From Halorubrum trapanicum (lineage in GTDB: Archaea; Halobacteriota; Halobacteria; Halobacteriales; Haloferacaceae): DNA of 64,000 bases. A program made the position numbers and the translations under genes. The notes under the pieces were generated by a model. It saw nothing but the letters and a program-made list of their open reading frames with translations, ran no database searches and was not told where the DNA came from. Location of the stretch: contig NZ_JAGGKE010000003.1 of the NCBI RefSeq assembly GCF_017873555.1, positions 1 through 64,000 of the forward strand. The letters are read 5' to 3'. Below are positions 1 through 34,703 of this stretch, in pieces. The first letter of the stretch is position 1. The number at the start of each line of letters is the position of its first letter.

Positions 1-285
1 TCCCGTCCCCCGGGCGGCCACGCCGCCGGCGAGCGCGCGTGCGGGGGAGGCGGGGGCGCCGACGGCGCCAGCGACGAGGCTGGGGAGGAGTGAGGTGCTG
101 TGCGGGGCGGGACTCAAAGGGGCAGCCGTGAGGCGGACGCACGCTCGCTGCGCTCCTCACTCGGTCGCTACCGCTCCCTCGTTGCGGTGCTTGCGTCGCC
201 TGCGTCCGCCTCACGGCTGGGGCTTTGGAGCTGTTCTCCGTCGTTCCGCGGTCAATCACGTACAGCCGCACGGCTGGGGCTTTTG
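1..285 (+). repeat. Structured repeat element, copy A (left end cut by window edge)
   Basis: This is one of three related copies (others at 28741-28998 and 34315-34586). Visible parts in order: a hairpin GGCGCC/GGCGCC at 55-69, the box GAGGCTGGGGAGG at 76-88, the box GGGACTCAAAGGGG ending near 122, then the main hairpin. Its left arm is CAGCCGTGAGGCGGACGCA (123-141), its loop is 59 bases (142-200), and its right arm (201-219) is the exact reverse complement. Outside the arms, CAAAG (115-119) and CTTTG (223-227) can also pair across a GGG/GGG internal loop. The loop lies in the opposite orientation to copies B and C relative to the flanks. A loopless remnant (CAGCCG-CA-CGGCTG-GGG-CTTTTG) follows at 263-285. 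The short ORFs across it are probably not genes. Function unknown. Confidence 0.8.
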
Positions 286-28634: not shown

Positions 28635-28740
28635 ATGTGCGTCTTACTGGGTCCGCGGGGTAAGGCGTGTCGCCTCGATACGTTTACGACAGGGTTGGTT
28701 TCGGCGGGGTGGTTCGATAGCTCGCCGTAGCGGACAGATC

Positions 28741-28998
28741 GGTGAACACCTCCAAAGCCCCAGCCGCGAGGCCGACGTACGCTCGCTGCGTTCCTCGGTC
28801 GGTCGCTGCCGCTCCCTCCCTGCGGTACTTGCGTCGCCGACGTCGGCCTCGCGGCTGCCCCTTTGAGTCCCGCCCCGCACGGCAACCGCAGCCTCACGCC
28901 TCCCCAGCCTCGTCGCTGGCGGCGCTGCCGCCAGCGACTCCCTCGCGCGTGCTGCTCGCGGCCGCCGCAGGCGGCCACTCGCAGGCACGCGCCACCGC
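28741..28998 (-). repeat. Structured repeat element, copy B
   Basis: Second copy of the family, read on the minus strand, starting 6 bases after the stop codon of the ABC ATPase gene. Hairpin I pairs GCGCGTGC with GCACGCGC (28945-28992) around an inner GGCCGCC/GGCGGCC stem that includes a G-T pair next to it. Hairpin II is a perfect 12-base palindrome arm pair with a 3-base loop (28912-28938). The GAGGCTGGGGAGG box is at 28899-28911. The main hairpin has arms at 28761-28779 and 28839-28857 (18 of 19 pairs) and a 59-base loop; CAAAG/CTTTG can pair outside it. The loop orientation matches copy C. No transposase or confident ORF; a spurious frame on the plus strand starts MNTSKAPAARP. Confidence 0.85.
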
Positions 28999-34314: not shown

Positions 34315-34586
34315 GCGGTGGCGCGTGCCTGCGAGCGGCCGCCACCGGCGGCCGCGAGACAGCACGCGCGAGGGAGTCGGGCGGCCGGAGCGAAGCGGAG
34401 GCCGGCCGACGAGGCTGGGGAGGCGTGAGGTGCCGCGCGGTCGCGGTCGGGTGGGACTCAAAGGGGCAGCCGGGAGGCCACGGTAGGCGACGTAAGCACC
34501 GCAGCGAAGGAGCGTTAGCGACTGAGCGAGGAGCGCAACGAGCGTACCGTGGCCTCCCGGCTGGGGCTTTGGCGGTGTTCACCGCC
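34315..34586 (+). repeat. Structured repeat element, copy C
   Basis: Third copy, on the plus strand behind a plus-strand gene. Hairpin I: GCGCGTGC (34321-34328) with GCACGCGC (34362-34369), enclosing GCGGCCGCC/GGCGGCCGC (34335-34355). Hairpin II: 34376-34386 with 34400-34410, 10 of 11 pairs. Box GAGGCTGGGGAGG at 34411-34423. Main hairpin: left arm CAGCCGGGAGGCCACGGTA (34467-34485), 59-base loop, right arm (34545-34563) fully complementary. Outer CAAAG (34459-34463) pairs with CTTTG (34567-34571). A final hairpin GGCGGTG-TT-CACCGCC closes the element (34571-34586). The minus-strand frame MNTAKAPAGRP is probably spurious. Confidence 0.85.
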
Positions 34587-34703
34587 GACCTACAGCTGAT
34601 TGTTTATAAGTAAGTGACTGCGCCTTCGGAGGCGTTCTCCGCTCAGCCCCCTATTTCATCTCGAACCGACCCGTTTAATCGCCGGCCGCGACTGTGTCTC
34701 GGT
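34587..34703 (+). promoter_or_regulatory. hisA promoter region
   Basis: Two TATA-like elements are visible: TTGTTTATAAG at about 34600-34610, directly behind repeat copy C, and CGTTTAATCG at about 34670-34679. The second lies about 29 bases before the hisA ATG and fits a leaderless start; the first would give a leader of roughly 65 bases. Confidence 0.55.

Follow-up and report, generated by a model that had tools for sequence, protein, structure and literature searches.

The window analysed here (a stretch of 64,000 nucleotides on contig C3 of a 3.08-Mb Halorubrum genome) contains three look-alike stretches, at 1-285, 28741-28998 and 34315-34586, which we call copies A, B and C. An earlier note, made from the sequence alone, described them as a structured family whose hairpin arms differ between copies while their pairing is kept. 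The locus thus raises the questions of what these elements are, how they are inherited, and what maintains their pairing.

The three stretches belong to one large family

The three stretches are members of one large family, with about 270 bp in each element. A BLAST search with copy B found at least 40 homologous copies in its own genome at 78-87% identity, in agreement with the family proposed in the earlier note, and a covariance model built from 39 own-genome copies gave 105 matches at E<=1e-30 among the retrieved loci of that genome. At E<=1e-3, at least 149 model matches were found genome-wide, about nine of which are second matches to inverted rods. All three copies are present as described, whereas the total of three given with them is wrong in view of the 105 strong matches. 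The limits of copy B (about 28740/28998) and copy C (about 34315/34584) nearly match those proposed, which placed the end of copy C at 34586.

The claimed 19-base arms, with exactly 59 bases between them, were recovered in each copy, without mismatch in copy A (123-141/201-219) and copy C (34467-34485/34545-34563) and with one mismatch in copy B (28761-28779/28839-28857). The word GACTCAAAGGGGCAGCC occurs three times in the window against 0.11 expected, indicating that this shared word is no chance match. The parts of the copies are as follows.

1..228, plus strand: copy A, whose 5' part is degenerate, at the contig start (cmsearch 84.1 bits at 29-240)
123..219, minus strand: rod hairpin of copy A, in the opposite orientation to the remainder of that copy (105 bits, model positions 152-247)
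229..285, plus strand: single 3' unit of copy A (57 bp), with a second CGGCTGGGGCTTTTG at its end
28740..28998, minus strand: copy B, whole element (model positions 1-268; cmsearch 233 bits)
28945..28993, minus strand: copy B 5' domain, containing tandem GA/GA, with hairpin 1 inside the outer stem GCGCGUGC/GCACGCGC
28912..28938, minus strand: copy B hairpin 2, an exchangeable module
28892..28911, minus strand: copy B box 1, GAGGCTGGGGAGGCGTGAGG, near-invariant in 39 copies
28858..28869, minus strand: copy B box 2, GACTCAAAGGGG
28761..28857, minus strand: copy B rod hairpin, arms and GA/GA rod (helices 7-12 of the covariation count)
28752..28766, minus strand: copy B 3' box, CGGCTGGGGCTTTGG
34315..34584, plus strand: copy C, whole element (cmsearch 237.4 bits)
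34320..34369, plus strand: copy C outer stem and hairpin 1
34376..34410, plus strand: copy C hairpin 2, with GAA triloop
34411..34430, plus strand: copy C box 1
34455..34466, plus strand: copy C box 2, GACTCAAAGGGG
34467..34563, plus strand: copy C rod hairpin
34558..34572, plus strand: copy C 3' box, CGGCTGGGGCTTTGG
34603..34610, plus strand: right-hand TTTATAAG of copy C, where the 57-bp unit repeat begins (degenerate here)

Copy A abuts the contig start, and its 5' side is cut or degenerate. Ends of contigs C1, C2, C3, C5 and C10 of this genome fall within or near copies, and the family probably breaks short-read haloarchaeal assemblies.

The BLASTN comparison with haloarchaeal genomes that the earlier note had proposed found further copies in abundance, with all 22 of the 22 congeners searched being positive. 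A second Halorubrum species, assembled as a single 3.06-Mb contig, carries about 145 evenly spread copies. Multiplying 120 copies by 270 bp puts the element at roughly 1% of a 3-Mb chromosome. Beyond Halorubrum, where the range rests on BLAST (16 other genomes), on the model (one genus, genome G024) and on single plasmid loci, divergent relatives occur in other haloarchaeal genera, in which the helices differ completely and the boxes are the same. G024, from another family of Halobacteria, gave 38 model matches, a Halobaculum plasmid carries two copies, and partial copies were found in Halorussus, DL31 and a Halobacteriales bin. Several non-Halorubrum genera gave no match by BLAST among the 16 other genomes. 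The plasmid search returned five weak matches, and the phage sequences searched contained no match to the family. No Rfam family matched above its gathering score, and a search confined to open-access literature yielded no description of the family. It thus adds a large structured element that is present in every Halorubrum examined and missing from Rfam. The family is best read as an old, dispersed, non-autonomous element of haloarchaea.

Covariation points to selection on one folded strand

Read along the sense strand, the element begins with GCGGU, followed by the outer stem GGCGCGUGCC/GCACGCGC around hairpin 1, GAGGGA and hairpin 2. Box 1 (GAGGCUGGGGAGGCGUGAGG) comes next and is separated by a variable, G-rich segment from box 2 (GGGACUCAAAGGGG), after which come the rod and the 3' box (GGGGCUUUGGAGG). 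Box 1 is near-invariant over 39 copies, as had been claimed for the boxes. The interval described as a loop of 59 bases has exactly that length; it is, however, not a free loop, as it folds into a rod in which an arm of 12-14 bp is followed by short covarying helices of 2 bp alternating with tandem 5'-GA/5'-GA mismatches. The GA columns of the rod are about 90% or more conserved while the neighbouring pairs vary. In copy B, CUCAAAG of box 2 pairs with the 3'-end CUUUGGAG, leaving a GGG/GGG internal loop. Helices 3-4 of the RNAalifold structure, which paired CUUU with box 1, were replaced by this closing helix on the basis of covariation: within Halorubrum, CUC(A/G)AAG and CUU(U/C)GGAG show 30 double changes (A-T to G-C) against 3 one-sided ones, and the adjacent pair is C:G in Halorubrum and G:C in other genera. 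That the G-tracts of box 1, box 2 and the 3' box form a G-quadruplex is speculation.

The folding energies of copies B and C lie 5.5 and 6.1 sd, respectively, below those of dinucleotide shuffles. In the 105 copies of this genome, 97.7% of cells are paired and double changes occur in 37 of 57 pairs, with 589 double-change cells against 155 in column shuffles and 18-93 with slid partners, in statistics that ignore the copies' kinship. Covariation therefore exceeds both the column shuffles and the slid structures, and the modules are unlinked among copies. The upstream hairpins vary and still pair, as the earlier note held: in helix 1 of the 5' domain, 97.4% of cells are paired and 7 of 11 pairs have changed doubly. 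Its suggested covariance-model check, run with cmsearch, likewise yielded many copies with covariation in the helices.

In the well-supported helices, G-U cells outnumber A-C cells by 115 to 19 on one strand, whereas a cruciform would treat both strands alike, suggesting that one strand, as RNA or single-stranded DNA, is selected. The covariation, the conserved GA/GA mismatches and the G-U bias thus bear out the selection on structure that had been proposed, and they indicate that a single strand (RNA or single-stranded DNA) is what folds, under selection.

Sites are inherited and bodies are exchanged

About 16 of 28 species have site B, after an ABC ATPase gene, occupied at the same place and in the same orientation; in the others it is degenerate or empty. 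Seven of the sampled species carry an element at the site before hisA, which is empty in the remainder; this pattern looks like one gain. For the in-depth comparison of sites, which covered two genomes, the 42 top-scoring copies of the second species were used, two of them preselected; 23 of these 42 have a flank-matched partner here, every one in the same orientation.

In contrast to the sites, the bodies retain little of this inheritance. Body identity was 0.705 for orthologous and 0.685 for non-orthologous copies, and orthologous bodies ranked anywhere from 2nd to 96th of 102 by similarity. The flanks remain orthologous right up to the element, the adjoining 10 nt giving 0.66 for orthologous versus 0.43 for non-orthologous copies, whereas the rod identities (orthologous/non-orthologous) were 0.77/0.77, 0.71/0.70 and 0.71/0.70, so that the orthology signal is gone inside the element. 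The similarities of hairpin 1, hairpin 2, spacer, rod and unit were uncorrelated with one another (pairwise r from -0.13 to +0.09). Identical hairpin-2 sequences are shared by unrelated sites and across species, and, of 28 hairpin-2 sequences in the second species, 10 have an exact counterpart at a site in this genome. Unrelated sites share exact tracts as long as 87 bp, within and between species alike, compared with a median of 25 bp for orthologues. These comparisons show, at the level of sequence, that element bodies have been exchanged between inherited sites.

The exchange tracts seem no more genome-specific than species-mixed. Simple within-genome gene conversion does not predict such species-mixed tracts, so that transfer between species must be added, and ectopic exchange together with transfer between species is the simplest account of the shuffling. 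In Haloferax, polyploidy and very efficient gene conversion have been described, though with long tracts (PMC8223754).

The differences between arms, interpreted in the earlier note as compensated drift, are accounted for by covariation in part and, for another part, by whole hairpin modules swapped between sites. Conversion between arms, offered there as an alternative cause, is not needed. Nevertheless, the rod is inverted relative to its own element in about nine copies, including copy A (123-219), indicating that arms must sometimes recombine or be copied across. The other eight lie at C1:49910, C1:86504, C4:55675, C4:102302, C4:128910, C6:74038, C9:7688 and C9:53458.

Gene context and flanking repeats

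None of the 102 copies examined for context lies inside a gene (genes called by our own codon score); all are intergenic. Convergent gene pairs flank 42 copies and divergent pairs 10, and between tandem genes 20 copies are sense and 29 antisense. Sites B and C, both in sense orientation just 3' of a stop codon, had prompted the rule of a sense 3' UTR, which the orientation counts over the 102 copies rule out; the tandem-gene counts imply no general cis role on the upstream mRNA. Orientation polarised by replication was also rejected, as 64 plus-strand and 79 minus-strand copies on a complete chromosome showed no such pattern.

The motif TTTATAAA stands beside about half of the copies, most often 12-13 nt before GGCGCG, and also after GGGGCTTT, most often at exactly 32 nt; its background is 0.35% of windows, and the element-linked occurrences are found in all gene contexts. 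As the element's own promoter it was rejected by reasoning, since its spacing would start the transcript inside the outer stem. In many copies the 3' box is followed by 57-bp units, from one to several, that contain TTTATAAA and repeat the 3' end of the element. The tandem units are often exact within a site and different between sites (window 229-285; loci L029, L033, L035 and L191), and a 32-bp analogue occurs at locus L327 of another genus.

Short double-hairpin repeats (for example GTCGCCGGCGCTATGCGCCGGCTGCCAGAGAATCTTCGATTCTCGCTGGA, or TCGAGACGCC followed by GGCGTCTCGTCATCACGA) are inserted in copies at L194, L203 and L206 (site B) and at L176 (the hisA site). They resemble the small mobile repeats that target the PATEs of Haloquadratum, and similar repeats lie beside the tnpA/tnpB loci L337 and L347. 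At site B of one species (L198), an apparent insertion sequence interrupts the element after about 75 bases.

Candidate mobilising enzymes

The reverse transcriptase domain RVT_1 was found in none of 39 genomes, with positive controls. This argues against retroposition and rules against a SINE-like retroelement, and a reverse transcriptase is unlikely as the mobilising enzyme. The Y1 transposase (PF01797) had no match in six of the 22 family-bearing congeners, one of them assembled in two contigs; mobilisation of the REP/RAYT type was rejected on the absence of this HUH transposase. The 4 tnpA and 13 tnpB loci of the genome lack element-like ends, the matches being double-hairpin repeats or short GA-rich words, so that an IS605/PATE origin by shared ends was discarded; none of the 13 tnpB loci carries a copy of the element. 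The aligned element ends showed no terminal inverted repeats. The empty hisA sites, compared for target duplication, are too diverged to be read. Gain was examined at one or two sites, and the analysis came upon no insertion confined to a strain that had a clean junction or a duplicated target.

Weighing the explanations

With moderate confidence, we regard the family as an old, non-autonomous, single-strand-folding mobile repeat whose body is reshuffled by ectopic recombination. Sequence comparison establishes the inheritance of sites, the exchange, and selection on one folded strand. The sense strand, as RNA or single-stranded DNA, would be kept foldable into one fixed architecture, in which a closed 5' stem containing hairpin 1 is followed by hairpin 2, the conserved GGCUGGGGAGG box and a long rod on the 3' side; CUCAAAG/CUUUGGAG closes this rod around the GGG/GGG loop. 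Occasionally, the element would enter a new intergenic site and then be inherited there for long. Homologous exchange among the 100-150 copies per chromosome would replace all or part of the body with the site unmoved, incoming Halorubrum DNA very likely joining in, and every copy would become a mosaic of interchangeable hairpin modules. Gene conversion is the presumed mechanism of exchange, and the fold presumably serves the element's own spread. It may serve mobilisation by some enzyme, or a host RNA function; the unpaired boxes conserved across genera exceed the needs of a hitch-hiking repeat and could reflect a function for the host.

That such a function is exerted in trans by a multicopy non-coding RNA, encoded by 100-150 interchangeable genes with the fold selected and the copies recombined, seems to us rather unlikely. 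The family would then be an undescribed, ancient class of large structured Halobacteria RNA with freely recombining copies, possibly with four conserved G-tracts suited to a potassium-rich cytoplasm, a proposal to which we give the same limited credence. It would explain the deep covariation, the invariant unpaired boxes and the tandem GA/GA motifs, the presence of the same boxes, despite completely different helices, in other families of Halobacteria, the even chromosome-wide spread over both strands, and the element-borne TTTATAAA found 12-13 nt upstream in about half of the copies. However, the TATA spacing would begin transcripts within the outer stem, about nine intact copies have an inverted rod, close relatives are missing from many genomes of the order, and a mobile repeat would account for the copy number and for the clade-specific sites. 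A derivative of IS200/IS605 resembling the PATEs, with single-stranded DNA hairpins recognised in trans by a HUH (Y1) transposase, is more doubtful still. Haloquadratum PATEs are likewise numerous and transposase-free, with near-terminal palindromes and neither terminal inverted repeats nor target duplications (PMC3119063); strand-specific folding suits single-stranded DNA, and small mobile repeats enter those PATEs just as double-hairpin repeats sit inside copies here. Nevertheless, the ends of the tnpA and tnpB loci are unlike the element, six congeners bear the family and have no Y1 transposase, and the conserved internal architecture far exceeds two end hairpins.

That the element acts in cis, as a 3' UTR or terminator of the upstream gene, is very improbable: the sense orientation of sites B and C just past a stop codon, the conservation of site B across the genus and the enrichment of convergent gene pairs would fit it, whereas copies between tandem genes run antisense as often as sense. 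As a general role it is largely refuted, and individual copies could have been co-opted. The least credible reading, which we practically discount, is that the palindromes arise by template switching with the structure unselected. Perfect arms with 3-nt loops, inverted rods and the palindrome richness of haloarchaea are consistent with it; template switching would, however, erase both mismatches and strand bias, and thus the six-to-one excess of G-U over A-C on one strand and the conservation of GA/GA between covarying pairs count against it.

Read as an old mobile repeat with a reshuffled body, the family separates the inheritance of sites from that of their content: the sites persist, and the bodies are reshuffled across copies and species. 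It makes haloarchaeal ectopic recombination directly measurable and raises the question of what preserves the fold of one strand.

Comparison with known systems

The REP/BIME/REPIN (for REPINs, PMC3116915) and ERIC elements of enterobacteria and pseudomonads are simple hairpins of 35-130 bp, and REP and REPIN are tied to RAYT HUH transposases. They share with the present family an intergenic location away from promoters, high copy number, palindromes and single-strand folding. In contrast, the family described here has about 270 bp and lacks homology to them. The BOX elements of Streptococcus pneumoniae are modular bacterial repeats in over 100 copies. The family resembles them in being modular and intergenic, in exceeding 100 copies and in the varying number of internal units arrayed in tandem, whereas here the tandem unit of 57 bp is a repeat of the 3' end that contains TTTATAAA; no relation in sequence is claimed. 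The HEARO or omega RNAs of IS605-type elements (archaeal examples: PMC12558985) are likewise structured, RNA-like, present in many copies and linked to mobile DNA. Unlike them, the family has no Rfam match, and the genome's 13 tnpB loci are without an element copy.

The nearest described haloarchaeal elements are the PATEs of Haloquadratum walsbyi, palindrome-associated transposable elements with near-terminal palindromes shared with IS605 transposons (PMC3119063). Both are haloarchaeal, short, transposase-free and heterogeneous in sequence, with strong palindromes and inserted small mobile repeats. As with the PATEs, which have hundreds of copies, the copy number is high. PATEs lack target duplications; none was seen here, where the empty sites are too diverged to read one. 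Like the PATEs, the present element, which has about 270 bp and is intergenic, is too short for a transposase and encodes none. In contrast to the PATEs, its ends differ from those of the IS605/TnpB loci in this genome, and a single conserved fold with invariant internal boxes spans all 270 nt.
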